From positions 1-42,062 of the IMG/VR virus record IMGVR_UViG_3300025645_000149: a stretch of 42,062 nucleotides of DNA. The stretch is one strand, 5' to 3'. This DNA comes from a virus. Shown here piece after piece: positions 2,237 through 40,979 of the stretch. A program made the translations under genes and the position numbers. The notes below the pieces were generated by a model. The model saw nothing but the letters and a program-made list of their open reading frames with translations, made no database searches and had not been told where the DNA came from. Position 1 is the stretch's first letter; each line of letters opens with the position of its first letter.

Positions 2237-2411
2237 GCTGGAGGAGGCAGTCCTCATCGCGTTCTTACTTTTAGTGATCGTGATTGTGCACGACATGGAT
2301 TTTGATGATCGCGTCCAAGAACTAGAAAATTACTGTGAACACGTCAGGAGTAGTGCTTGGCCTGACTACAACCCTGAGACCAACTGCGAGGAGGTAGCTT
2401 TAAATGACTGA
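2223..2411 (+). CDS. Small membrane protein with single TM segment (62 aa)
   Basis: A GTG at 2223 follows a perfect AGGAGGAG site, preferable to an upstream in-frame TTG at 2208 that lies inside the ribosome site's own upstream region. Residues about 9-23 (AVLIAFLLLVIVIV) form one membrane helix, followed by a short hydrophilic domain with two cysteines (YCEH and TNCEE) and a WPDYNPET motif. Similar N-anchored peptides with two cysteines and a WPDY motif are recurrent in marine phages; role unknown, perhaps an envelope modifier. Overlaps both neighbours. Confidence 0.75.
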   Translation: MSKSRLEEAVLIAFLLLVIVIVHDMDFDDRVQELENYCEHVRSSAWPDYNPETNCEEVALND

Positions 2412-2889
2412 TAAACAAAAACTTGTAGATAAGTATCCTCACTTCCGAGAATACTATTTCGCTTCAAAAAAGGAGGCAAAAGTGCGTAAACGCTGGACTG
2501 CGGATGAGGATGTCCGCTTGTATGAACTCATGTCTGCTGGCGTGTCATACGCGGAAATTGGCAAGGAAATGGGTCGCACAGACAAAGCTGTAGAGATGCG
2601 AGCATTCACGCTAAGACGGAAAATGCGAGCCGCTGGCATGAATGGTCAGTCAGATGTGATGACCAAGCGGAAGCCACGCAAACGCAAACCCGCCAAGCGC
2701 AAAGCTTCTGCTAAGAAGGTGCCGCAGAAAAAGGCTCCTCGCGCAAAGCCTGAGCCAGAGATCGTTTACTCCGGTGGCGCTATGTTTGAGGAGCGCATGG
2801 GTCACCTAATGTTGTTGGGTGCGGCTGGAGCGGCAGGCGTGTGGCTTGCTCTCATCTTAATTGGCGTTGGGTTTTTCCTGAACTTATGA
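2404..2889 (+). CDS. Myb/SANT-like DNA-binding protein with C-terminal membrane anchor (161 aa)
   Basis: Residues about 30-74 form a Myb/SANT-like or GcrA-like helix-turn-helix (RWTADEDVRLYELMSAG, then YAEIGKEMGRTDKAVEMR), with the Trp, acidic helix and IGxxMGRTxxAV recognition region typical of the fold. Residues 87-116 are extremely Lys/Arg/Pro-rich, like a histone H1 tail, and would bind DNA without sequence preference. Residues about 134-160 are a long uncharged stretch (MLLGAAGAAGVWLALILIG) that should span a membrane. The order DNA-binding domain, basic tether, membrane anchor suggests a protein that holds DNA at the inner membrane. Function is inferred, not known. Confidence 0.85.
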   Translation: MTDKQKLVDKYPHFREYYFASKKEAKVRKRWTADEDVRLYELMSAGVSYAEIGKEMGRTDKAVEMRAFTLRRKMRAAGMNGQSDVMTKRKPRKRKPAKRKASAKKVPQKKAPRAKPEPEIVYSGGAMFEERMGHLMLLGAAGAAGVWLALILIGVGFFLNL

Positions 2890-12313: not shown

Positions 12314-15300
12314 TTACTTGTTTTTGCCTACAACCTCATCATACCTGTCATTGAATCGCTCAATAACACGGTCTATTCTATCTTGCAGGTGCTTTTCTTG
12401 CTGTGCAAGCTCTACGGCTCGGTCAGGACTGATCGCTTTTAGCTTCTGTATGGCGCGCAAAGACGCCCTAAGACTCTTTAACGCCTTCTCAGTTGCCTTT
12501 GAGTTGGGCATCATATTGAAGAATGGCCTATTCTCCTTGATGTATGCCGCTCTTTCGGCACCCCTAAGCACTTTGTTGGCTTGATTGAGCTTGGCTGTTA
12601 GAGTTTCTCTGCGCTCATAGTATTGCTCGGTGTCTGGTTGGGCGTTGATTTCTCCGCGTATCCTGCGGACAAACGGAATGTCCCTGACCTCAAGCTCTGC
12701 TGTTTCGTCCAGAAGCGCAGACGGCACCTTTAGGAATGTTCTTTCCGCGAATGTTCCCGCGCCACCACCAAAGTAGCCTACCAAGTAGCTCATGGCATCT
12801 GGCGGAAACTCAATCGCCCCTGCTTCTGACTCGTTACCACCAAAAAACGTACTGACGCCTTCGGAAATGTTCTTCCACAGGGAGGCTGTGTTTTTAAAAG
12901 ACCTTCTAGACAAAGGCTCACTAAACCCACCAAACGGGTTGTCTGGTGGGTAAATAGGTGCGCCAAAGTAGTTTTCGTTCATGGTTAGCTCTAACGCCGG
13001 CTTGAGTATTTGTGGTGTTGCGGTTTTCAAGAGCGAGCCAATGTAAGTTTCGCTTGACGAAGTGCCAAGAGGGTTAAACGAGCCTAAGAATACGTTGGTG
13101 GCCCTGACAGCGGCATCTTCTTTAGATAGTGCTCCAGAGCTAACAAGATAGGCGTTCTCGCCAAGGTTGTAGAACACGTTGTACCCGTAAGGGAGCGGAA
13201 TAGTGCTGTATGTTTTCGGGTCACCGCCCCACAAGGCGTCCGGAATAATCATGTTCCTATCCCTAATGTACTCAGGGATGTCATCGAACTCTTCCTCGTC
13301 CATTAGCGATTCGGCAAGCGCGGCCATTAAAGCACCAAAACCCACAATGCCTCCAACAACCGCCTGCTTTGTTCTAGACGAGTCAGGGTTAAACACGTTC
13401 AGCCCGCGCATTGTATTCACGGTGCCCTGTACAGATGCGTTAAAGAACAGGTACAGGCCATTTAATAACTGCCCTGAGTTTCCTCGCCTGTTGAAGTTGA
13501 CTGTCAGATTCTTGGCTAGCGTTGCGGCTTCTTGCAAGGCTGTGTCCCCGTCTATACCCTTCGCCAGCATCGCATCTCTTGCCGCAACAAACGTGGCAAG
13601 CCTGACCCCGTTCTCTACGGCGGAGTTGGTGTCATCAATGAAGTCCTTGACAGCTACCAAGCCCTGCGTGGCATTACCACTAAATGTGCCATTCGCCATA
13701 TCGACCATGCGTTCGATGTTCTTTTTTTGTTGCTCCGGAGGCTTGGAATGAAACCAGTCTGTCTTAGCGCCCGTCTGCATAAACTCACGGAAGTCTATTG
13801 CATCCTGCCCAGTAAGGTTGCTGGGGTCTCGATATCCCTTGTAGAAAACCTTGATGGAGGGGATTGTTCTTTTGAGCACCTGCCCCACGATTTTCTTAGC
13901 ATTGACAGCCTTGCCGCCTTCCATTGTCTGTTCGCCAATGATGTTGTATATAGCGGTCTGCACATCACGGGCGAAGTTGCCCATAACAAACTCAGGGTTA
14001 AGGCTGGTGTTGACGTAAGACATAAAGCGTGTAAAGCCGTTGAGCCTTTCTACAAGAAACCCTACGCTTTCTGCATCAAGATTAATCGCGGCCTTTCTCA
14101 AGCTGGGGTTGGCAAAGTGAACGTAATACTGCTGTCCGTCTACTTTTACTCCAAGAAGCTCTTTGCCGTATGGGTTAATGACGGGATCTTGAATAACTCT
14201 AACGCGCTTGACCCAGTTCTTTTTGTCGTTTTCCTTGGAGATGTCAGACTTGCGCTCGCCGTAGCGTGACTTGTCAGGACCAACGTATGTGTATGAAGTG
14301 TCAAACGCCCTTCTGTACTGAGGGTCATCTGGAGAAATTAACTGCCACACCTCGTCATTCGGATTGTTCTTGATAAGCTCGACAAGGCGCTTGCCAAATG
14401 ACACGTTTTTAACTGATCTAGCAGTCTGCCTTCCACGGTCAGAAATGATTGTTGCAAGCGGAGAGATTGCCTCTGTTTGCCTGCCCATTAGCCGTTTTAC
14501 TTCCTTGCCCACAATACTCAGGCTTCCACCAGAACCAGCGGTGCCCTTGTTTGTTTCTGCGGCAATATCTTCGTCTTGTGAAATGCCGCGCAACGGCGTG
14601 TAATATTTAAAGAAGCCATCAAGGAACTCACGATCTTGCTTCGTCAGCAAGCCACCTCTCTCGGAGATTGCCAAGGTAGTGCTATTGATCTTGTCAACCT
14701 TGGATGCCAGCCTAGACATGAGCCTGCCAGCGTCATTGCCGCCTTCCCATTCGCCTTTTTTGTCGTTCCAACGCATGCCATACTTGTTAAGCATTTGTTT
14801 TTTGACGTAATCGTCAGTAAGCCTTTGGCCGTTCCACTCGCCAGATCCGGCGTCCGGTATGGATGGATTGATGTTTCTCACTCGCTCGTTACGCTCAATA
14901 GCATGCCGGAAAACCAAAAACTCATCCATCTGGTCCAACGACACACCACTTTCTGACATGTCATCAACAAGCGGTTGCAACTCATTTCTCTGGAATCTGC
15001 GATCAAGCTCGCCCAGCTTGCCGGGAATTGTTTCTTCGCCTATGTAGGCGCTTGCTTGAACGGCCAAAGGCGGCTCACCCCTAGCTTTTCTGGCCTCGTT
15101 AATTGCCTCTTCAATCGCCTTGAGGTCGGTTAGCTTGTCTTGAACCTGAAAGACAACCCGATCAAACCATGACCGAGATGGGGTTGTGAAAGAAGGGGCG
15201 TAGCCGTTTTGATCCGCAAATCCCGCGTTTACCGAAAAAGCAATCGGGCCTTGCTCAAGAGTTGCCGCGCCTGCGGGGTCTAGCTCGACTGACTCTGCAT

Positions 15301-18300
15301 ACTTAATAACTTGGTCAAGAGCATTTTGACTAGACCGCTCTACATTTCTGTCTGAGGCTCGACGCGAGAAGGCGACTTGGTCCTCACTGAGGATGTTTGC
15401 ATCGCTAGGTCGCTGTCCGGTGACATCGGCGTCTCCTTCAGATTCAACAGCGTCTGAAACAGCCGCCTCTGTAGTTGTTGTTCCTTCCGAGAAATCTTGG
15501 ATGATTTGATCGAGTCTTTCACGATTTACTTCCTCTGATTGATACCAAGGGTAGCCAGCTTCCCGATATGATTTTACACTAAATTGTGAGGGAATAACTC
15601 CGTTGGCCGGCTTCTTGATGTAAGCCAAGAATTCTTTAAAACGCTCTAAGCCAAACCTGTGCGGGGTGCCAGAACTGTCTGCGTACATAATGTACGGGGT
15701 TCCATCCGCATCGCGGGCATACACAGAGCCAAACGCAAACTGATGGAAGCGTCCTTCGGGTGCGCCTATGTCCGCATAAGACTCGGCTAGCGACCGATCC
15801 CCCTTGGTCTCACTGATTAAGCCCTGTATGGTTGGATGGGACACGACCTGCCCCGAGTCCCTTACCCAGCTTTCCCAGTGATAGCGCCCAACAGACGCAT
15901 CATCCGGTCTGCCGACCCCGTCATAAAGATCCTGTATTTTGTTGGCGAGGGATCGCTCCAAAGCCTCGTATCTTGCCAGCCCATGAGCGCCCTCAAACAA
16001 ACTCGCTATATCGTCATATATTAGCCTTCCGAATCGACCGGCGTCCCACATGGAATTGATTTGTATGCGGTCCAGCACCACTACATCCTTCCTTCCGGTC
16101 ATCAGAAGAATAAACGACAGCACTTTATTCTGAATTCCCATGCCTTGATTCAAGCCGTAGTACCTAGCCCGGATGTCGCTGGTTGGCACAGACTTGTCAG
16201 CTATAAGGTCATGCAGTTCTTCTAGCGCAGACTTGCCGCTTGGTGTGCGCTTTGACATTTTTGGTAGGAATGTTTTGCCAAAGGCACGGAGATTGGATGT
16301 TCCCTGCTTAGATGGAGCAAAGTCTGGAATAACCGTGTCCGTCCACTGAAGGTATTCGTCTATGTCAGCTTGAGTCCATTCCCGCTCGACGGCCCTACCA
16401 ATAAACTCAGACAGTTTTTTGTCTATGGCGGCATCAAGGAACGCTGACTCATGCGGGTGTGCAGACAGCATTCGAGAAAGTATGCCCCACAGCATCAGCT
16501 TACCCGTGGTGTCTACCGTGGCATCCCCGTTTGCGTAGGCTTGGCTCATATCTTCTACAAGCTCAAAGCCCTCTCCAGCGGCGGCAAGCTGTTCTGGAGT
16601 AAGCTCTTTATGCCTCTCAACCCACGCATCTATGTCGTCGTACAGCCTGATTAAACCTGTCGGCGCTGACGGCGTTTCGTTGTCGCCCATTAAATCACGC
16701 TCAAACCGCAACCATGCGGCCTTGCTGGATAGTGGGTCTGGGTGCCGCTCTGCCAACTCAGCCAGTTTTTGAGCCTGCGCCTCACCGTTTTTGGGATTGA
16801 TTGCTTTGGGCAGTGCTGGCTTGCCAGACACCTGACCTCTGGAGGAGACAATATATTCTTTGGGGATTCCATGCTTCATGTCGGCGCGGCGACTAAACAT
16901 CATATCGTCAATGCCCACCCTTCTCACCAACACGCCGGCAGGGCCAAGGTTTAGCGAAGACACCTCAAATTCAGGGCCAAGCGCGCCCCTCACATAATCA
17001 ACAAGCTCCCTCCTAGAGAACCCTTTTTGATAGGTTCCTCTGGTGGTGATAATTGAGGTTGCCTCTGGCCCAAGGTTGCCTTGAGCAGAAAGAACCTCCT
17101 TGCCTCTCGTTGTGATTACCGCAACCCCGCCCGCGTCAAGAGCAGTCCCTATGTCCCTGACAATCCTGTCTCTTGCGTCACGCGGCACCACGTTCAGCAC
17201 ATTGAGGTTTAGGATTTTGTCATAAGATCGCGGGGATATCTGGTCTGGCTCTGTATAGGTGGGAGAAAAGTCTTTGCGAGGAAACGGCTCGTAAGAGTCA
17301 TACCCTAGCTCCTTGGCGCCAAGACCAAGACCTGCGCCAAAGTCCAGATACCTGTCTCCAGACCCCTCTCGGTCCAATATATCTGCGGCCTTGCGGTATG
17401 TCGGCAGGGTTCCCGAAATCTGCGTTCTTTGCGCGTTTTCCGGCGGCGGCAGATCAGTGCGCCTACTGAACATGATGTCATCTTCGTACCGCATGCCCTC
17501 TGGCACAGCAGTGGGGTCGTACTCAGCGAACACGCCCTTGATGTCAGCGGGATTAAATACTGCTATGCCAGTTACGTCCTTGCCAGTCCCGCCCTCAAAA
17601 TCAAGGTAGGAATCAAATCCAGCCGCCTTGATGAAAGGGGATATGGTCTCAAGATCCTCAAACGTGAACTTGGTTAGGGGTGTAGCTCGCACCTTTTTGC
17701 CAATCTTATCTGTGACGGAATCTGCAAAAGAGATCGCGTCTGGCTCAGTGAGATCGAGCCGTGATGTGCTGAGGAGGTTATCGACAATAAGTTTGTGCCC
17801 TTGACCGTCTGCACCTCGGTCGATGTCGGCCATAACTAGGCTCACCATCTTCTTGTCGCGAGGGTCAAATGTGTTTTTAGCGCGCAAGAACACGGGGTAG
17901 ACAGTCTGCGCCTCACCCTCTCTAGCCACTACGGGTACAAACGTGTTGGCAAACTTTGGATCTGTGGTGAAGTGGCCAGCAATGATGCCTTTTGCGTGAG
18001 GGATTTCCGTGCGGAATCGACGAATGTCAGGCGAGGCTGTGCCGTGGTAGTAGGGGGTGCTGGTGTCATAGCCCTGCTCGTCCGCTCTGTCCAGCCTGCG
18101 GCTAAACATCATATCGTCGATGCCAGCCTCTTCCATCAGGCTGTCAGACTCCGGTATTTTTTCCTTCAAAACCTCTAATTTTTCAGGGGTCGAACCTGAA
18201 GCTGTTGCAACAACTGGCGCTCGTCTATTAATAAACTGGCCGGATATCTGCTCCAGCCTGTACAGTGTACGCACCTGCCCGCGCTGACGCTCTCCAATCG

Positions 18301-21300
18301 CCCCAGACTCAAGGTCGGTAATAAACTGAGTGAATGACTCGTAGTCGGGATCGGCCTCTTTTGCCGTATTAAACAAGCCCTTAAAAAACTTAACAATACG
18401 GTTAAATATAGATCGAGGTTTGCCGGTGAGCTTGGCTGACTTGTTATCTATTATGATGCGACCAGATATTCCGTCGCGAATCATTTCGGCTACTGCTTCT
18501 TCTGATATGTTGACGGCAGTGTCACCCGCGTAGGTTTCTGTCGCCCACTCCATGTAAGTTTGATTGGTGTCAGTCTTGCGGTATTTAGTCGCCAATCTTT
18601 CCAGAAGCTGTAACTCTTGCTGGGTAATAACATCAAGCTCACGCAGTGCATGCACAATCTCATGGTTGAGCACGTCAATTACTGCGGACTCAATGTCTTC
18701 TGGCTTATTCGCCCGAGACATAATCGCATCTAACGCAACCTGTATGGTCTTGGCGCCACTGCGTTGATATCCACCCTCGACACGCTCATCCGCGCCCTCT
18801 GCGACGTTGTTAAGGTAGACGTTGCCGTCAGCGTCTCGCTCAACATTGCGAACCAAGTCCGTCACAACCCCTGAGATGTCTGGCAAGCCAAGCGCTTTGA
18901 GGCGTCGATTAACCGCATCAGACAGCATCTTCTTGGTGTCGGGGGCTATCGAGGGGGGCGGTAATGCGGCTATTGGCTCTTGCTCGACTTGCCCCTCGGG
19001 AGACGTGCGCCGCGCTCGACTTGTCACTTCTTTGTATGCGGCGTCAGTCAGCGGCTTCCCCGAGGTGTACTCCAGTTCGGCCCTATTAATATCCTTGCCA
19101 TTGGCTTGGTAGTAGTCTGTTGCGGTGGCAATTTGGCTGGCCGTGTAAGGCCGTAGCTTAAACTGAGGGATCTTGGTGGGCTGGTCAAAACGCGGAAGCT
19201 GGCTGAGCTTCAAGTAAAGCAACTGACCCTCAGCGGGCGTAAGGTCATGTATCCCTTGATCTCTTCTTAACTTGTTACCAGTAAATCTAGCCGCAAGGTG
19301 TTTGATTTCTGGTGAATTGATATCTGAAGATATGTTTTTTTGATCCAGTATTCTGCGTATTTTTTCTACGCTGAACTCTGGATCTCCCATTATCTCCTTG
19401 ATCGGTATCCTAGCTTCGTCCTTCGCCCTGTTAGACTCTCCCGCATAGTCAGAAGCATCCGCCACAGACGTAAACTTCACCCGCTTTGGCGGTCTTTTGC
19501 CCTGCTCTCTGGCCGCTTGGCGCTCTGCCGCAGTTGCAGGACGATCAAAGATGTAGTCGCCGGCAGGCTCCATCTGCCCGTCAACATTCATTGCCTCTGG
19601 AATTACAGCAAACTTACCCTCAACAGGGAACGGCAATGCTCGGAAAGTGTTTACGCGGAAGGTGCCTGACTCGTAGTCAGCAAGACGACCCACATCAGAT
19701 CCGATCTCCCGGCGTATCTCGCTTAGCGCAAACCTGTTAGTAGTAGGCTGATTGTTTTTAAGTCTACGCACGTTAATTCGCTGGGCAATAGTCTGTTGCT
19801 TGCGAGGAATGCTGTTTTTGATGATCTCTTCGGGGGACAGAGTAGGCAGGAACCCTTTCTCGGGAACGGTGCCGCCTGCGTAATTTGCGGCCTCTGCGGA
19901 ATACGACAGCGACTCTGGGCCAAGAGCAATACGGCCTAGTCGGTGCAGTGTCCTAACTTGATCGGGGGAATAGTCTTCGGATGACTCATTAATAACTATA
20001 CGGTTATTCTGGAAGATAGACTCTTCAACAGTCTGAGCATTGAGGGCAACGAGGGCAGGCTGTAGCTTGATTTTTTCTTGAGGCGTGACCGCTCTGCCGT
20101 ATGCTTGTCCAGACGGGTCTTGTATTTGGAAGGTGTTGTTATCGTTTTCAACAATCTCAAACACTGGCTCAGTCGGAAAGCTATCACCCATCTGAGCAAC
20201 AACGCTTTGGCCAAACGCCTTGTAATCACTCGCGCTTAGCTCTTCTTGATTGAGCAGGGTGTTTAGAGAATCTCCAATTATCTCCGGCTCGGCCTCAACG
20301 GGGACGGCAAGTCGCTCAGAAAGTCTTTCTCTTCGGGCTGTTTCATTGTTATCAATGCCGTCGCGCAATTCTTCCTCTGCCGCAACAAGCTCTTCACGCA
20401 AAGGCTTTACTTCATCGGGGCTATCTAAACCAGACAGTCTGCTTTTTCTGGTTGCCAAATTAAGAGCAACATCAAAGAATGCGCCGGCTACACCGCCAGC
20501 CCCTAAGTCAGACGCCAGTGAGTCGGTAATGTCAATGTCTGGGTTGATGTATTCCTTTAGATTGGCATTAGATGCAAGGCCGGCAAGGGCTTCCTGAGCA
20601 CCTTCAAGCGTACCTTGCTTCAGCGCGCTAACCAAATAGTCCGTGATTGTCTTTACGGCCTTCGGGTCTTTTGCCGCCGCTTTGGATAGCGATCGGAATG
20701 CCCCTACAGCTAAACGACCAATCGGAAGACCTTCAGATGCGCCAATCAAAGCCTGATTCCGCATGGCGGTTTCGTAATCTTCGTCGGAGACAGATCGACC
20801 CATCTCCAATGCTCTGGCCGTCGCCTCCATGCCGGCACTGACATTAGCGCCAGACCCTATGGTGGCGCCACCCAAGATGCCAGCGCCGGCTCCCACCAGT
20901 GCACCCACAGGGCCACCAATTAAGAAGCCGGCACCGACACCCGCCAAAGCAGGTCCATAGCTAGGGAGCGCCCCGCCTATTGCTCCCGATAAAAACCCTA
21001 CAGCCCCGTCTTCGTAGCCCTCGTCATACCCAAAGAACTCTGAAATGCTTTGTGCGGCACGGCGGTTGCGCTCTACAAGGGCTTTATCGTCTTCGTCAAA
21101 GCCTTCTTCCCCAAAGAACCGCTCTTGCAGACCGCTTGGGACTTGAGCTAATTGCGTTGCCGCAGAGCCAAGGGTTCTTTGACCAAACTCAACCACGTCA
21201 TCAAACAGGCTGGTCTCTTGGCTATATGCGGCAGACGGGTCTAGTGCGTACTGCTGAGACGCATAGGAAAGGATGTCCTGCTCTGCCGCGCCATCAGGAT

Positions 21301-21352
21301 GCTGAATATCAATCAGCTTGCCATCTGGAGTCTGTACCTGAGTTACCGGCAT
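12314..21352 (-). CDS. Giant polyvalent virion/ejection protein with protease, ART and methyltransferase modules (3012 aa)
   Basis: Order along the chain: an N-terminal VQTPDGKLIDIQHPDGA segment seen at the start of many phage internal proteins; a glycine-zipper hydrophobic region about 110-175; an HExxH site His897-Glu898-His901 with a downstream EEAVAEM block, as in gluzincin-like peptidases; an ADP-ribosyltransferase-like module about 1090-1290 (YYHGT near 1101, GHFTTDPKFANTF, VYPVFLRAKN); a Rossmann methyltransferase-like module about 1310-1480 (YLDFGAGLGLG near 1336); an unassigned module about 1490-1990; and a C-terminal LPD38-like part with LTVNFNRRGNSG and LYLFFNASVQG near 2610-2640 followed by a TM-like helix near 2670. 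Four [DE]D-x-x-[MA]FSRR motifs (near 1083, 1295, 1485, 1994) mark the joints. It is likely packaged and ejected into the host. Module roles are by motif, not proven. Confidence 0.9.
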   Translation of the reverse strand: MPVTQVQTPDGKLIDIQHPDGAAEQDILSYASQQYALDPSAAYSQETSLFDDVVEFGQRTLGSAATQLAQVPSGLQERFFGEEGFDEDDKALVERNRRAAQSISEFFGYDEGYEDGAVGFLSGAIGGALPSYGPALAGVGAGFLIGGPVGALVGAGAGILGGATIGSGANVSAGMEATARALEMGRSVSDEDYETAMRNQALIGASEGLPIGRLAVGAFRSLSKAAAKDPKAVKTITDYLVSALKQGTLEGAQEALAGLASNANLKEYINPDIDITDSLASDLGAGGVAGAFFDVALNLATRKSRLSGLDSPDEVKPLREELVAAEEELRDGIDNNETARRERLSERLAVPVEAEPEIIGDSLNTLLNQEELSASDYKAFGQSVVAQMGDSFPTEPVFEIVENDNNTFQIQDPSGQAYGRAVTPQEKIKLQPALVALNAQTVEESIFQNNRIVINESSEDYSPDQVRTLHRLGRIALGPESLSYSAEAANYAGGTVPEKGFLPTLSPEEIIKNSIPRKQQTIAQRINVRRLKNNQPTTNRFALSEIRREIGSDVGRLADYESGTFRVNTFRALPFPVEGKFAVIPEAMNVDGQMEPAGDYIFDRPATAAERQAAREQGKRPPKRVKFTSVADASDYAGESNRAKDEARIPIKEIMGDPEFSVEKIRRILDQKNISSDINSPEIKHLAARFTGNKLRRDQGIHDLTPAEGQLLYLKLSQLPRFDQPTKIPQFKLRPYTASQIATATDYYQANGKDINRAELEYTSGKPLTDAAYKEVTSRARRTSPEGQVEQEPIAALPPPSIAPDTKKMLSDAVNRRLKALGLPDISGVVTDLVRNVERDADGNVYLNNVAEGADERVEGGYQRSGAKTIQVALDAIMSRANKPEDIESAVIDVLNHEIVHALRELDVITQQELQLLERLATKYRKTDTNQTYMEWATETYAGDTAVNISEEAVAEMIRDGISGRIIIDNKSAKLTGKPRSIFNRIVKFFKGLFNTAKEADPDYESFTQFITDLESGAIGERQRGQVRTLYRLEQISGQFINRRAPVVATASGSTPEKLEVLKEKIPESDSLMEEAGIDDMMFSRRLDRADEQGYDTSTPYYHGTASPDIRRFRTEIPHAKGIIAGHFTTDPKFANTFVPVVAREGEAQTVYPVFLRAKNTFDPRDKKMVSLVMADIDRGADGQGHKLIVDNLLSTSRLDLTEPDAISFADSVTDKIGKKVRATPLTKFTFEDLETISPFIKAAGFDSYLDFEGGTGKDVTGIAVFNPADIKGVFAEYDPTAVPEGMRYEDDIMFSRRTDLPPPENAQRTQISGTLPTYRKAADILDREGSGDRYLDFGAGLGLGAKELGYDSYEPFPRKDFSPTYTEPDQISPRSYDKILNLNVLNVVPRDARDRIVRDIGTALDAGGVAVITTRGKEVLSAQGNLGPEATSIITTRGTYQKGFSRRELVDYVRGALGPEFEVSSLNLGPAGVLVRRVGIDDMMFSRRADMKHGIPKEYIVSSRGQVSGKPALPKAINPKNGEAQAQKLAELAERHPDPLSSKAAWLRFERDLMGDNETPSAPTGLIRLYDDIDAWVERHKELTPEQLAAAGEGFELVEDMSQAYANGDATVDTTGKLMLWGILSRMLSAHPHESAFLDAAIDKKLSEFIGRAVEREWTQADIDEYLQWTDTVIPDFAPSKQGTSNLRAFGKTFLPKMSKRTPSGKSALEELHDLIADKSVPTSDIRARYYGLNQGMGIQNKVLSFILLMTGRKDVVVLDRIQINSMWDAGRFGRLIYDDIASLFEGAHGLARYEALERSLANKIQDLYDGVGRPDDASVGRYHWESWVRDSGQVVSHPTIQGLISETKGDRSLAESYADIGAPEGRFHQFAFGSVYARDADGTPYIMYADSSGTPHRFGLERFKEFLAYIKKPANGVIPSQFSVKSYREAGYPWYQSEEVNRERLDQIIQDFSEGTTTTEAAVSDAVESEGDADVTGQRPSDANILSEDQVAFSRRASDRNVERSSQNALDQVIKYAESVELDPAGAATLEQGPIAFSVNAGFADQNGYAPSFTTPSRSWFDRVVFQVQDKLTDLKAIEEAINEARKARGEPPLAVQASAYIGEETIPGKLGELDRRFQRNELQPLVDDMSESGVSLDQMDEFLVFRHAIERNERVRNINPSIPDAGSGEWNGQRLTDDYVKKQMLNKYGMRWNDKKGEWEGGNDAGRLMSRLASKVDKINSTTLAISERGGLLTKQDREFLDGFFKYYTPLRGISQDEDIAAETNKGTAGSGGSLSIVGKEVKRLMGRQTEAISPLATIISDRGRQTARSVKNVSFGKRLVELIKNNPNDEVWQLISPDDPQYRRAFDTSYTYVGPDKSRYGERKSDISKENDKKNWVKRVRVIQDPVINPYGKELLGVKVDGQQYYVHFANPSLRKAAINLDAESVGFLVERLNGFTRFMSYVNTSLNPEFVMGNFARDVQTAIYNIIGEQTMEGGKAVNAKKIVGQVLKRTIPSIKVFYKGYRDPSNLTGQDAIDFREFMQTGAKTDWFHSKPPEQQKKNIERMVDMANGTFSGNATQGLVAVKDFIDDTNSAVENGVRLATFVAARDAMLAKGIDGDTALQEAATLAKNLTVNFNRRGNSGQLLNGLYLFFNASVQGTVNTMRGLNVFNPDSSRTKQAVVGGIVGFGALMAALAESLMDEEEFDDIPEYIRDRNMIIPDALWGGDPKTYSTIPLPYGYNVFYNLGENAYLVSSGALSKEDAAVRATNVFLGSFNPLGTSSSETYIGSLLKTATPQILKPALELTMNENYFGAPIYPPDNPFGGFSEPLSRRSFKNTASLWKNISEGVSTFFGGNESEAGAIEFPPDAMSYLVGYFGGGAGTFAERTFLKVPSALLDETAELEVRDIPFVRRIRGEINAQPDTEQYYERRETLTAKLNQANKVLRGAERAAYIKENRPFFNMMPNSKATEKALKSLRASLRAIQKLKAISPDRAVELAQQEKHLQDRIDRVIERFNDRYDEVVGKNK

Positions 21353-33995: not shown

Positions 33996-36374
33996 TTACC
34001 TCGCGTTGGCGTATTTGAAGGGCATCTCTGCAAATGCCACGTAAAGGTATGAGCCAGTATTAGACCCATTGTATGCGGCGTTGCTATTTACGATTCTAAA
34101 CCCGTTAGACAGATAATCTATTGCGTGTCCCGTTCCTTCTGCGACATCAAGGTTTGCGTACAGTGTTGCGTTATCTAAGGGGTTATATGGGCTTCTTGCA
34201 GTGTCGTTGATGTACCAGTTTTCAGTGCCATTTGTTCTTTTTATCATCACCCACGCTGGCCTAAATCCGGTATAAATAATTGGCCCAAGCGCACTTCCGT
34301 TATCAAGATAAGCCCCAATCTTGCTGAAGCCTTCTACGCTGTGAAAGCAGTAGGCTACAAAGTCACCAGAGGTATACCAATCTTTAAACGTGGTGGCCGT
34401 TATCGTCATGGTGTCATCACCACTAAATACGTGGGTATCGTCTAGTCGTGCATAATCTATAGTCCCGTCAATTGTTGTAGTGAACGTGTACCATCCAGTA
34501 CTAGCAGTACGAGATTTATGTATGAGTAATTCTGGCGCTTTGTCTAAACCGTGCCCTACGTCATTATGGCCGCTGGCCGCAGTAAAAGTGACAATACTAA
34601 ACCCAGCATCAGTATTGGCAGACACTATAGATGTAATATCTCCTTCATTATTAGTTACGCCTGAACCGCCAGCTTTCCAGTTCCATGCAACCTGACCAGA
34701 AGCGGCATTTCCACCTACGTTTGATCCATACGAAAATCCATCAGAATCAAAAGATGTGAGCGTTGTAGATAAAGTATTCGCTCCGTTAGTGTGGTTAGGC
34801 ATTAAGTAATTTTGTGCGCCTCTAATAACATCGTATAGCTCATGGTCATAGGCATTTGCTCTGTTTTTAAGCCAAACCATATCAGGCTGAAAACCTACGC
34901 CAGTAACCGATATTGACGAACCATTACCTGTATACACCACAGTATTAAAGTAATCTTGTGGGCTTGCGTCTAAGGCAGGGTTAAACGCCGCTGGTGGATC
35001 AGGCAGGTTAGCCGTACATAAAGCTAGATGGCCTGAAGGCGGGCTGTAGTAAAAGTCACCGCGTCCGTTAGCGTCTGTGTTGCCTTGTGCTGTTTTGTTT
35101 CCAGCAAAGCTAGAGTCTTGCCCAAAATTAACTACGCCTGTTGTACCCGTAGAACCGCTAGTTCCGTCACAAAAAAGAGGGACTAAACCCGAAACATCAT
35201 AGGTTTTTGTGTACATTAAAGAATTATTTTTGTAAAACTTAACATCAGTTCCATCGTAACTAACGCCAACAATATCGTCATCTTCTGCGCCTTTACCCGC
35301 GTCAGCACCAGAATCAGTAGATCCATTTACAAGTAAATAACCAGCAGTCCCATACGAGTAGTATGTAATAGAAGGGTTTGCATCGGAAGGAAACGCATTG
35401 CGGCAATCAGACCTACAAAAACCTACTACGGGAGAAAACCCCGCTGTTTTTACATATACCTCAAAATACCAACTTTTAGTGGAAGGAACGCCTATAGTGC
35501 CTTGACCAAAACCACCGCCCGTTACAGGAGTGGCATACTGTAAGCCTCCCTGAGAGTATGAGTTATATCCTGCCCAAGAGCCGGGAGAAAGCGTGTTTAA
35601 AATGGCAAAGTTGTTTGTCGGGCTATCCGGCACTTGATCCGTGGCTACAATGTTTGTAACTGTCCAAGTATTGCCGTTACCGCTGGAGTCCGTGCCTAGT
35701 GAGCTAGAGTTACCAAACTTCAAGTAATACCCTAAAGAGCCGTAGCTACCTGTGTACGCTTTAGGAATCCATGTGTCTGACTTGGTTTCGCCAAAACTGG
35801 CTGGCGTTAGTGCAGTGCCATCAACAAAGTTTACTTCGGTTATGTAGCCATCAAAGTAAGTGGTGTCGTATGGCGTAGACCCAATAGTATGTTCGTTGGT
35901 GTTGTTGACGTATCCTTGCTTGTAGCGATTTGGGTCAGAACTTTCGTACCAATCTGTTATTTGCTCGCCATTAACATATATTTTAATTCTGTTTGAAGCT
36001 GTTTCTTGGCCTGTATCTGTAGCAATTACAATGTGATACCAAGCGGCAGGATCTCTAAACCTTTGAGAGCTAGTGTAAATCCAATCATACGCACTGCTGG
36101 TGTATCCGTTGTAGCTTAACCTGTCGTTGCTATCAAAAAACAAAACATCTCTGTTTACACCGCCAGTACCAGCACTAAAAACACCGTCATAGCCAGAGTC
36201 TGCGAATTTTGAGCGTTTAATCCACGCGCTAAAAGTCCATGTCCTCATGTTGCCAGTAGACGAGGGTGTTATGCTTAGTTGTGAATTAGCATCAAACCGT
36301 ACAGAGTTGTCTATCTCATGCGGATAGAAGCCCGATGAGTACATCCATTGCGGTGAGCCAAATGGACCTGACAT
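33996..36374 (-). CDS. LamG/SPRY-type receptor-binding protein candidate (792 aa)
   Basis: An N-terminal concanavalin A-like LamG domain is suggested at residues about 20-205 (FSAWIKRS, WYHIVIATDTGQ, KIYVNGEQI, DGYITEVNFVDG). A SPRY-like domain follows at about 285-420 (WYFEVYVKT, VGVSYDGTDVKFYKNNSL). Two further β-domains contain VYTGNGSSISVTGVGFQPDMVW and IIYTGFRPAWVMIKR, which look like two copies of one fold. The assembly of lectin-like modules fits a tail spike or fibre that binds host glycans. Confidence 0.8.
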   Translation of the reverse strand: MSGPFGSPQWMYSSGFYPHEIDNSVRFDANSQLSITPSSTGNMRTWTFSAWIKRSKFADSGYDGVFSAGTGGVNRDVLFFDSNDRLSYNGYTSSAYDWIYTSSQRFRDPAAWYHIVIATDTGQETASNRIKIYVNGEQITDWYESSDPNRYKQGYVNNTNEHTIGSTPYDTTYFDGYITEVNFVDGTALTPASFGETKSDTWIPKAYTGSYGSLGYYLKFGNSSSLGTDSSGNGNTWTVTNIVATDQVPDSPTNNFAILNTLSPGSWAGYNSYSQGGLQYATPVTGGGFGQGTIGVPSTKSWYFEVYVKTAGFSPVVGFCRSDCRNAFPSDANPSITYYSYGTAGYLLVNGSTDSGADAGKGAEDDDIVGVSYDGTDVKFYKNNSLMYTKTYDVSGLVPLFCDGTSGSTGTTGVVNFGQDSSFAGNKTAQGNTDANGRGDFYYSPPSGHLALCTANLPDPPAAFNPALDASPQDYFNTVVYTGNGSSISVTGVGFQPDMVWLKNRANAYDHELYDVIRGAQNYLMPNHTNGANTLSTTLTSFDSDGFSYGSNVGGNAASGQVAWNWKAGGSGVTNNEGDITSIVSANTDAGFSIVTFTAASGHNDVGHGLDKAPELLIHKSRTASTGWYTFTTTIDGTIDYARLDDTHVFSGDDTMTITATTFKDWYTSGDFVAYCFHSVEGFSKIGAYLDNGSALGPIIYTGFRPAWVMIKRTNGTENWYINDTARSPYNPLDNATLYANLDVAEGTGHAIDYLSNGFRIVNSNAAYNGSNTGSYLYVAFAEMPFKYANAR

Positions 36375-37638: not shown

Positions 37639-38109
37639 TTATGCCGCAATTTCTTCGTAGTTTGGCGTCTGCGACGGCGCTATGTTTGAGTAGCTTGGTG
37701 TTTGATCGGGAACAATCGACCCCCAAACAATCACCGCCCCTACCGACCCTGTTGCCGCTAGCCCTTCAACGGACACATTGGCTTTTGCGGCGGCGGTAAC
37801 AGATCCAACCGACCCTGTAGCAGAAAGCCCTGTGACGCTTATGTTGTTGTTTGTGACTGTGGATGCAGACCCAACTGATCCTGTGGCGGCAAGCCCTGTG
37901 ACCGTTATGTTCGCTTTTGCTGTTACTGTGACAGAGCCAACCGACCCCGTGGCCGCAAGACCTGTAACGGCAACGCCAGTGCCCGGAGCGGCAGTGACTG
38001 AGCCTACGCCTCCGGTAGCACCTGCGTTAGTATTGCTACCTTCGTTCCACCCAGCACTGCCCCAGCCGCCACGACCCCAACCAGTAAACGGGACAGTTGC
38101 GTCAGACAT
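37639..38109 (-). CDS. Repeat protein with four 22-residue units (156 aa)
   Basis: The sequence has a Trp/Gly-rich start (WGRGGWGSAGW) and then four 22-residue units of the form NITVTGLAATGSVGSVT, with the GLxATGSVG core invariant. The end has two short PxQTPxYxxI units. The repeats suggest stacked β-strands, as in a fibre or spike shaft. Similar tail-end YxxI units occur in other marine phage structural proteins. Confidence 0.8.
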   Translation of the reverse strand: MSDATVPFTGWGRGGWGSAGWNEGSNTNAGATGGVGSVTAAPGTGVAVTGLAATGSVGSVTVTAKANITVTGLAATGSVGSASTVTNNNISVTGLSATGSVGSVTAAAKANVSVEGLAATGSVGAVIVWGSIVPDQTPSYSNIAPSQTPNYEEIAA

Positions 38110-38543: not shown

Positions 38544-38822
38544 TTAAAGCCTCCTGATAGCTTCGGCTAAGTCTTTTTGCCCTGCATCAAGCAAGGCGTT
38601 ATAGATGGTTGTGCGATCAGAATTAATCGCCTCTTGCATGTAATGCAATAAAACAGAGCGAATCTGACTGCGATAGGCAAGAGCCTGCTGTTTTAATGTG
38701 GGGTGAGCGGCGTCAGACACAGATAAAATACGGTCTAGACACCTTTCTGCTATCTCTTCTGGGGTAAAACCCCTATTGCTGGTAGTTTCCACCCCAACGG
38801 TACCAACCTCCAGTTCAAGCAT
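38544..38822 (-). CDS. Small conserved virion-operon protein (92 aa)
   Basis: A mostly helical protein (GFTPEEIAERCLDRILSVSD, then YRSQIRSVLLHYMQEA and LLDAGQKDLAEAIRRL), similar in shape to short proteins encoded beside adaptor genes in marine phages. The stop of the adaptor gene overlaps its ATG by one base. Function unknown. Confidence 0.75.
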   Translation of the reverse strand: MLELEVGTVGVETTSNRGFTPEEIAERCLDRILSVSDAAHPTLKQQALAYRSQIRSVLLHYMQEAINSDRTTIYNALLDAGQKDLAEAIRRL

Positions 38823-39463
38823 TAGGTTCGCATCTTCCTGACCGCGCCACTGCGATAGCTGTCAGTGGTGCTATATCCCTCTCCTAGCTCTTCCAGACGC
38901 TGAACGGCGTCTTCATACCTCTGGGCATACAACTGCATTAAGTCGGGATCACCCTTCAGGTAAGTGTAAGCCTCTACCAAGCAACCATACAGAAGGGTTG
39001 ACTCTGCATTGGTGCCCAGCCAGCTTGTGCCTGAGCTTGCAGTGGTGATGGACTCGGGCTTGTGGAAGTAATGAAGCTCAACAGTAAAGTTGCTGTTTGG
39101 CGTTGGGCCAATCAGGAAGTAATCTTCACTAAAGGCGGCGTAAGTTTTGGGCACCCCTGTCGTGGTTGAATCGGGATACGCCTCACGCATGTAGTTTACA
39201 TCTTTAAACAGAAGATACTCGTACCCAGAGTTGTTTATTGCCAGCGAGTATGCCGACAAAAAGTCTGACGGCATTGCTAGGTAGTTGTTGCCAGAGGTCA
39301 TAGTCCCCGTGACGTTCTTCCTAAAGTCCGGAAGCTGACAGCGTTTTAGTATCCTATCTTCCGCCTGAGTAATGATTGTCGGCAGATTATTGACAAAGCT
39401 GGTCTCGTTCGACTCAACATAGTCTTGAATTGTTTGCTTTAGCGTTGTAAATGTAAAACTCAT
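38822..39463 (-). CDS. Head-tail adaptor-like protein, SU10 or gp11 type (213 aa)
   Basis: The order FTTLKQTIQDYVES, IITQAEDRILKRCQLPDFR, then LAMPSDFLSAYSLAI and STLLYGCLVEAYTYLKGD matches the phage adaptor family (T7 gp11/SU10 adaptor type), a dodecamer that joins portal to nozzle. The C-terminal helical segment (YAQRYEDAVQRLEELG) is also typical. Function follows from family and position. Confidence 0.82.
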   Translation of the reverse strand: MSFTFTTLKQTIQDYVESNETSFVNNLPTIITQAEDRILKRCQLPDFRKNVTGTMTSGNNYLAMPSDFLSAYSLAINNSGYEYLLFKDVNYMREAYPDSTTTGVPKTYAAFSEDYFLIGPTPNSNFTVELHYFHKPESITTASSGTSWLGTNAESTLLYGCLVEAYTYLKGDPDLMQLYAQRYEDAVQRLEELGEGYSTTDSYRSGAVRKMRT

Positions 39464-40287
39464 ACCGTGTTCACCTTATAGCCCATGCCACTGTGGACAG
39501 TGCAGTATGTGTAGAGCGTTGGCGCTCCTGAAGCCACAGTAATCTGGGTATAGGCGCCTGAGCTTCCCGGTGTGCCAGAGGTCGTTACTCCGGTCGTGTA
39601 CTCGCCACCGCCGCCGTGCGAGCCATCAGATGTGGTTGAAAAGCGCAGTGGGTGGCCAGAGTTACTGCCGGCTGACTGGTCAAATCGGTAGGTTTGACCC
39701 TCACTAATATTGACGCCACTTGTCCCCGGCAATGTTCCGTCTTGATAATATTTGTTGCCAGATCCGGGGTTGCTTACCGTTATCGCATAACTGGTTACGT
39801 TGACGCTTGCCGTAACACCGCCTCCTGCCGTTTGTCCGGCGACCCCTGTAGGATATACAAGCGTATCTTGCAAGGACGCCGTAACCCCGTTTACAGCCGA
39901 GTCTCCAGCAAGCCCCGTGGGGTACACAGACACATTATCGGATGCGCCAATCTCAATGCTTACGCGACCGACGTGCCCTGACATGTCGAGACCGACAGTG
40001 CGGCTACCCAGAGCAGTATCACCGCCACCCACAGGATTGAACGCAAATAAAGCCCGGCTTTGATCCAAGCTATTGTCGGGTCTTGGATTCCGAAGAGCTT
40101 GCGGATCACTCGCATTTACATCCCCCAATTTAAGCTGAGGCTGATCTTTATCTACAACATCGCGACCAACGAGCAGTCCATTCCATCGGCCATCTTCTAT
40201 CTGCTTGACCAAGTCCCTAATCGGATAGCGAAAGCCAGTCCTGTCGCAAAACCCGTAAGCGCGCTTGCCGGTTACATAGCTACTCAT
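39460..40287 (-). CDS. Structural protein with C-terminal cupredoxin-like copper motif (275 aa)
   Basis: The N-terminal segment (GFCDRTGFRYPIRDL, then WNGLLVGRDVV) resembles a zinc-ribbon seen in related phage proteins, but most cysteines are missing. Two β-units with VYPTGLAGDSAV and VYPTGVAGQTAG follow. The last 70 residues have the strand order and ligand set of a type-1 copper protein: His212 (SGHPLRF), Cys262, His265 and Met268 (YTYCTVHSGMG). Such a module on a tail protein is unusual. Copper binding is inferred from the ligand pattern. Confidence 0.8.
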   Translation of the reverse strand: MSSYVTGKRAYGFCDRTGFRYPIRDLVKQIEDGRWNGLLVGRDVVDKDQPQLKLGDVNASDPQALRNPRPDNSLDQSRALFAFNPVGGGDTALGSRTVGLDMSGHVGRVSIEIGASDNVSVYPTGLAGDSAVNGVTASLQDTLVYPTGVAGQTAGGGVTASVNVTSYAITVSNPGSGNKYYQDGTLPGTSGVNISEGQTYRFDQSAGSNSGHPLRFSTTSDGSHGGGGEYTTGVTTSGTPGSSGAYTQITVASGAPTLYTYCTVHSGMGYKVNTV

Positions 40288-40979
40288 AAGTCGTTATACC
40301 CACCGGGAGCCATATACAGGGCCGCTTTTTCGCGAGCAGAATCAGCCGCCAAAGACCACTGCTCCTCATACACCTGCTTGAGCATCGGAGCCATCTGCAT
40401 AGATTCTGGCCGCTTGCTGGCAATTTGGTAGGCAAGTCCCGACACCAAACAAGGCAAGAATCTTGCCGGCACATCCATGTTGTTTGATGCGGGACTGCCT
40501 GTGTCTTCTATCCGTTCCATGTAGTAATACTCGAACGTATAGCTTTGAGTCGCATCAGGAACCGGCCAGAAATGCACGGTAACCCCAGTGGGTTTGCGTT
40601 CAACGTAATACTGCAACGGACGCCCCTGAGTCAGCTTGTTTGTCTGGTGGGCATACTGGCTCACCGAGATTCTTTGCATCGTCAGGTCTGATTGCTTGGA
40701 GGTGTTGCCTGCGTCTGTGCGAAGCAAGCCTTCGATAATGTCTAACTTGTCAGCACTAAGGTCGTATGACGAAGTTCCTGCGGTGAGAGCCTGAGAGGTA
40801 TTTCGTACCGTCCAGAGATTAAGGCCGCGATTTTGCCATTCAAGCATAAGTAGATCAAGACTGCGGCGAGCAGTTTTGTAGTCATACCCGCTCCTAAGCT
40901 CCAGACCCGCGCGCTCATACGCCTCTTCCATAATGTCTGACAGGTCAAGGGTAAAACTGGTTGTTCCGCTTGTCGCCAT
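40284..40979 (-). CDS. gp11-like tail tubular protein (231 aa)
   Basis: The pattern LDLSDIMEEAYERAGLELRSG, TARRSLDLLMLEWQNRGLNLW and RFLPCLVSGLAYQIASKRPE is typical of a marine podophage adaptor family related to gp11. It overlaps the copper-motif gene by four bases. With the 213-residue adaptor, the phage has two proteins of this type, so one may act on the neck and the other on the tail. Confidence 0.8.
   Translation of the reverse strand: MATSGTTSFTLDLSDIMEEAYERAGLELRSGYDYKTARRSLDLLMLEWQNRGLNLWTVRNTSQALTAGTSSYDLSADKLDIIEGLLRTDAGNTSKQSDLTMQRISVSQYAHQTNKLTQGRPLQYYVERKPTGVTVHFWPVPDATQSYTFEYYYMERIEDTGSPASNNMDVPARFLPCLVSGLAYQIASKRPESMQMAPMLKQVYEEQWSLAADSAREKAALYMAPGGYNDL

Follow-up and report, generated by a model that had tools for sequence, protein, structure and literature searches.

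The virus record IMGVR_UViG_3300025645_000149 of IMG/VR, analysed over its whole length of 42,062 nt (the window), encodes a 275-aa virion-type protein with a C-terminal cupredoxin-like domain that is predicted to hold a complete type-1 copper site. Two things are well supported: by modelling, the eight-strand Greek-key cupredoxin sandwich of this domain and, by sequence comparison, the predicted site itself, with its ligands in order and Cys-His-Met in the last loop. In cells, sites of the type-1 kind are textbook centres of electron transfer. Fold and site are thus known already; the virion-borne form, with the spread described below, appears to be undescribed. A literature search for cupredoxin, blue copper or plastocyanin-like domains in phage particles, tail fibres and cyanophages found no description, in a coverage that excluded most subscription papers and preprints.

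The protein consists of an N-terminal domain, a variable middle region and the C-terminal cupredoxin domain (Table 1), and the reading frame is genuine, as this layout is kept in dozens of contigs. The codons for His212, Cys262, His265 and Met268 and the motif YTYCTVHSGMG read as stated in the first-pass annotation of this DNA. The interval given there for the copper site (39460-39690) contains the ligands but takes in only about the last 75 residues of the domain, which starts near residue 164–167 (about 39789–39798 in the window). The middle region varies in length in the alignment of full-length relatives and, from its behaviour in the model, can be read as a linker or stalk. Repeats of the VTGLAATGSVGSVTV type, resembling those of this linker, make up a small protein encoded elsewhere in the window (37639-38109, minus strand). 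In some relatives (L147, L419, L116 and L140) the N-terminal domain has a zinc-ribbon-like CxxC...CxxC arrangement (CDRCGF...KTCPSCYE), and most of these cysteines are gone from the window protein.

Table 1. Window coordinates of the protein, its parts, the predicted ligands and the adjacent genes.
Feature	Position	Strand	Evidence
275-aa virion-type protein: N-terminal domain, variable middle, C-terminal cupredoxin domain	39460..40287	(-)	ORF; relatives with like layout; full-length model
N-terminal small beta domain, about residues 1-65, conserved, docking-type	40093..40287	(-)	Relatives; full-length model
Middle region, residues 66-158, variable length, TGVxGxxxVGxV-type repeats	39814..40092	(-)	Low model confidence; alignment of relatives
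C-terminal cupredoxin-like domain, residues 167-275	39463..39789	(-)	AlphaFold model, full-length model, VIA-align
His212, predicted first copper ligand, just ahead of strand 214-217	39652..39654	(-)	Most conserved family column; aligned with plastocyanin His in profiles
Cys262, predicted copper thiolate ligand, end of strand 258-262	39502..39504	(-)	Conserved in 158/165; co-lost with His ligands
His265, predicted copper ligand (C-x2-H)	39493..39495	(-)	Spacing in 155/155 intact representatives
Met268, predicted axial copper ligand (H-x2-M)	39484..39486	(-)	Spacing in 154/155
SU10-type adaptor protein, upstream neighbour	40284..40979	(-)	Pfam PF24175, E 1.1e-13
SU10-type adaptor protein, downstream neighbour	38822..39463	(-)	Pfam PF24175, E 4.9e-24

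Fold, homology and ligands of the C-terminal domain

An AlphaFold2 model of residues 167–275, built from 38 relatives with templates unused, shows eight strands, with a mean pLDDT of 86.7 and a pTM of 0.80. When the full-length protein was modelled (52 relatives as input), most ten-residue blocks from residue 161 onwards scored about 90 or above and residues 11–50 of the N-terminal beta domain about 78–90, while pLDDT was mostly <50 across the middle (66–158). His212 precedes strand 214–217, Cys262 forms the end of strand 258–262, and His265 and Met268 lie in the loop ahead of the last strand (271–274), so that the modelled order of the four residues is that of the type-1 copper ligands of cupredoxins. 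Their clustering is predicted from this strand topology together with the profile alignments to plastocyanin. No HxH motif, as found in the type-2/3 copper histidine pairs of multicopper oxidases, occurs in the domain sequence, and that assignment was rejected.

Foldseek searches of the PDB with the domain and full-length models gave no match with E <0.001; their top rows were antibody, semaphorin and laccase chains, or antibody and semaphorin chains for the domain alone. For that reason, the structural comparison relied on VIA-align, run on PDB chains preselected by Foldseek, and on independent sequence evidence. For both models, cupredoxins or cupredoxin-domain proteins account for 50/50 of the VIA-align matches listed, in agreement with the cupredoxin-like fold proposed from the sequence in the earlier annotation. 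The best among the matches listed are rusticyanin (Z 8.6, rmsd 2.7, 102 residues) and the N-terminal cupredoxin of the three-domain nitrite reductase NirK (Z 8.7, rmsd 2.6, 97 residues), and the highest Z barely exceeds what unrelated models can reach. Taken by itself, the fold evidence is moderate.

Homology to blue copper proteins becomes visible by steps. Searched as a single sequence against the PDB, the window domain returned only antibody chains and noise, and the window protein had no match in Pfam or NCBIfam. Within the window's family, 6/69 relatives match PF00127 (Copper-bind) weakly (best E 0.013), below the curated cut-off, and the profiles A1 and A3 (the latter made from the 69 sequences) when used alone gave weak PDB matches, e.g., A3 to pseudoazurin with E 0.5. 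The link to the PDB was clear only once a second family and a joint profile were added. Phage P-HM1 carries, besides a module of the window type, a second domain type, and the profile of this second type (A2) matches plastocyanin 1b3i with E 2.5e-4, followed by nitrite reductases, amicyanins and plastocyanins, with the plastocyanin His, Cys, His and Met in register. Thirty-one of the 32 members of the second family match PF00127 (best E 7.9e-5), the first member scoring 19.7 bits against a cut-off of 21.2. Profiles A3 and A2 align with a hhalign probability of 96.9% (E 1.5e-10) and all four ligands in register; as controls, 100 column shuffles of A2 gave 3.6% or less and the reversed profile 8.2%. 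With the joint profile (A5), Anabaena plastocyanin 1fa4 is matched at E 8.9e-4, again with ligands in register; plastocyanins, amicyanins, copper nitrite reductases and copper oxidases make up the whole of this profile's best 26 matches. At the level of profiles, homology to solved PF00127 members is detectable by way of the joint profile or the second family. The second phage type (L253–L332, the P-HM1 type) is closer to plastocyanin than is the type found in the window.

The conservation of the ligands was examined in 408 unique copies, gathered from the open frames of 433 loci by six iterations of profile search and reduced to 169 representatives (<80% identity). Ranked by entropy across these representatives, the four ligand columns take positions 1–4, the lowest of all, and H, C, H and M are all present in 118/126 representatives that cover the four columns. 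Together with the plastocyanin profiles, this bears out the proposal of the first-pass annotation that the four residues stand in the order and strand context of blue-copper proteins; a lack of ligand conservation, named there as a refutation, is not what the alignment shows. Among the unique copies, 354/408 have all four ligands, and a further 37 retain C, H and M in sequences that start after the first His, at the edge of their locus; the apparent loss of the first His in these copies is an artefact, the locus start having cut them off. Ligands tend to be lost together, with Fisher p values of 1.4e-9 (Cys with second His) and 2.5e-8 (first His with Cys) when sequences are counted as independent. 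The conservation was not produced by the search, since one scan was run with two patterns alone, G[SV][EQ]YTTGV and VAx[GN]APTLY, neither of which touches a ligand. In the joint alignment A5, the four ligands are the sole invariant columns.

Degenerate copies are scattered in the family, L026 and L077 being close relatives of the window protein and L295, L310 and L319 belonging to the second type; the latter are examples of second-type loci that pair intact copies with ligand-less ones. At the position of Met268, a few relatives have Leu. Cys is followed by Ser or Thr in 104/155 representatives, as is also seen in many cupredoxins. The first His is directly followed by Pro in 114/118 representatives, a position at which plastocyanin and azurin usually have Asn.

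Compared with plastocyanin, amicyanin and pseudoazurin (PF00127), the phage module shares the ligand order His...Cys-x2-His-x(2-4)-Met and the eight-strand sandwich, with ligands in register with 1b3i and 1fa4, and its C-x2-H-x2-M loop is like that of amicyanin. It differs from them in scoring below the curated cut-off, in being borne on a virion protein with no evident signal peptide, in the Pro after the first His, and in a long conserved stretch (YTTGV...GTPG) that separates the first His from the Cys. Rusticyanin and the N-terminal cupredoxin of NirK (2dv6, 6tfo), the closest in structure among the matches listed, have only 12–14% sequence identity to it, and rusticyanin is a free periplasmic electron carrier.

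Spread among marine phages and a SAR86 lipoprotein

The earlier suggestion of a wider family in marine phages was borne out, as copies of the module occur in hundreds of ocean phage sequences, with the ligand set nearly constant among them. Beyond the window, it is carried by large tail-fibre-like, baseplate-adjacent and neck-adjacent proteins of cyanophages, Pelagibacter phages and Methylophilales phages, with one to four copies per frame, and a viral structure library likewise has it in cyanophage virion, tail-fibre-like and baseplate-connector proteins. Judged from these sequences, the module is mobile. S-TIM5 (gp134), Bellamy (gp121), Melnitz, Mosig, Syn1 and P-SSM2 have the same module, with ligands intact in the copies read, but on carriers that differ from that of the window and under annotations without copper. 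The spread suggests that many ocean viruses carry the predicted copper site. The complete site is the most conserved feature of this virion module and occurs in cultivable isolates (S-TIM5, Syn1, Bellamy, Mosig, Melnitz and Baldr), so the copper content of particles and a need of infection for copper are directly testable. If copper were present and needed, marine phages would join the copper cycle and would have a metal-dependent step in adsorption or stability.

A scan of bacterial genomes revealed a cellular counterpart in SAR86, where the module is a free-standing domain behind a signal peptide and a lipobox (LAAC or IAGC). Two copies (L424:4728-5276 and L431:4731-5276, both on the plus strand) lie on contigs of 471 and 241 kb, at the same gene site on both, between ordinary metabolic genes and a gene for a protein of ~970 aa with a signal-like N-terminus, which is probably secreted. 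The SAR86 domain is 64% identical to that of the window over 77 residues and has all four ligands; it differs in being cell-encoded, a predicted lipoprotein with a single domain, and flanked by metabolic neighbours. The module is present in 5/8 genomes of the genus, with the four ligands kept in 5/5, and these genomes also encode a separate protein scoring above the Copper-bind cut-off. In a tree, the SAR86 copies form one clade with support of 0.88, or 0.97 when the L433 protein is included; no direction of transfer is discernible in this tree of SAR86 and phage copies. L433 (SAR86 MED-G84) is a 541-aa frame with the module at its C-terminus and a weak Copper-bind match (E 0.0093). Other genome copies that lie on short contigs or beside tail-fibre-like frames have the look of phage or prophage DNA.

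Place in the particle and possible roles of the site

The 275-aa protein is probably a neck or tail-connector appendage. Its gene sits between two SU10-type adaptor genes, and for this reason the head-tail connector or neck is a better guess than the tail. Adaptor-like genes flank both sides in 145/158 relatives that have the same N-terminal domain and the module (counted within the locus). The first-pass annotation had described a type-1 copper site on a tail structural protein: the fold, the ligand set and the wide marine-phage family are all upheld, while the tail placement, although close, was inexact. Planktothrix phage Pag-Yong1 has the N-terminal domain without the module, as a 91-aa protein encoded beside an annotated portal-adaptor gene, and phage 023Pt_psg01 has the two in separate, adjacent genes, from which it follows that the module is an add-on. 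Carrier proteins are assigned to virions from annotation and gene position; for the phage S-SCSM1, a virion proteome has been reported (PMC9602691).

The reading we lean towards, as moderately probable, is that of a copper-stabilised, surface-exposed module for contact with the host envelope, mounted on a neck-docked virion protein and not serving as an electron carrier. The small N-terminal domain would dock beside the SU10-type adaptor ring, and the flexible linker of variable length would hold the outer cupredoxin module away from the particle. As the protein has no evident signal peptide, its folding would take place in the host cytoplasm and bring in little copper or none; the metal could be taken up after lysis or on touching the envelope of the next host. 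Bound copper may then stiffen the Cys-His-Met loop where the barrel is exposed, at the end that would contact the cell envelope, so that the metal would act mainly as a structural and recognition element. This role is preferred to electron transfer on two grounds: the window proteins scanned included no redox gene, and the repetition and reshuffling of the module resemble those of a binding module. Envelope contact itself is argued only from the position of the protein and the absence of redox partners.

The main sober rival is a site that is empty or filled with zinc, the residues being kept for packing or for another metal and virions lacking copper. Seawater copper is scarce and strongly complexed, so the predicted site might be empty, and folding in the cytoplasm, which is very poor in free copper but not in zinc, points the same way; type-1 sites can also take up Zn in recombinant preparations. 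Packing alone, however, is not expected to require a Met, a Cys and two His at these places, and four ligand types that are kept in exact C-x2-H-x2-M spacing, and lost together, make a metal-free or other-metal site rather unlikely. A redox-active blue copper centre, exchanging electrons with the host envelope at adsorption (e.g., as a trigger of the tail or to pass oxidative defences), would fit the complete type-1 set with Met as axial ligand, which in plastocyanin and amicyanin is tuned to move electrons fast, and also the cellular cousin in the SAR86 envelope. We regard it as improbable, since a Pfam scan of the window proteins found no copper, electron-transfer or redox-partner gene, and the many different carrier virion proteins, with up to four module copies in one frame, are a better fit for a binding or structural module.

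Copper might instead serve as bait, the loaded domain being recognised by surface proteins with which the host takes up or handles copper, in a copper version of the iron 'Trojan horse'. The iron version has been proposed for a marine phage tail fibre (PMC11705849), which is like the present case in placing a transition-metal site on a phage appendage but differs in that the iron is held by His (HxH), with no cupredoxin fold and no Cys or Met ligands. In favour of bait, the phages that bear the module are mostly marine, and a homologue is present in a bacterial envelope. Against this, there is no known receptor, and a position at the neck adaptor is unusual for receptor-binding proteins (though tail-fibre-like proteins bear the module in other phages), which leaves bait an unlikely explanation. 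Far less credible is an ordinary Ig-like decoration domain resembling cupredoxins by chance. It would account for the antibody and semaphorin domains that Foldseek puts first for the domain alone, and for the Ig domain (PF07686) annotated on the module proteins of P-HM1 and P-HM2. In Pfam, the window protein has no Ig match. The VIA-align matches listed, however, are cupredoxins; ligand columns that are the most conserved of the family, and profiles that match solved plastocyanins in register, led to a generic Ig domain being set aside.

Beyond the neck-docked contact module preferred here, a broader proposal may be put forward, speculative and on balance doubtful: that many ocean phages carry copper-loaded domains, in common with copper lipoproteins of the bacterial envelope, and exploit the metal during adsorption, whether as bait, as sensor or as redox trigger, in which case infection would depend on copper from seawater or from the host envelope.

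Several other frames of the window were noted. A 792-aa protein (33996-36374, minus strand) has an SPRY domain and DUF7483 and is related to phage virion and tail fibre families. The largest of these frames encodes 3012 aa (12314-21352, minus strand), takes up more than one fifth of the record and matches only two PHROGs without an assigned function, phrog_14770 and phrog_616. At 2404-2889 (plus strand), weak matches to the GcrA cell-cycle regulator and to Myb-like domains (E 5e-4 to 9e-4) hint that the host is alphaproteobacterial.
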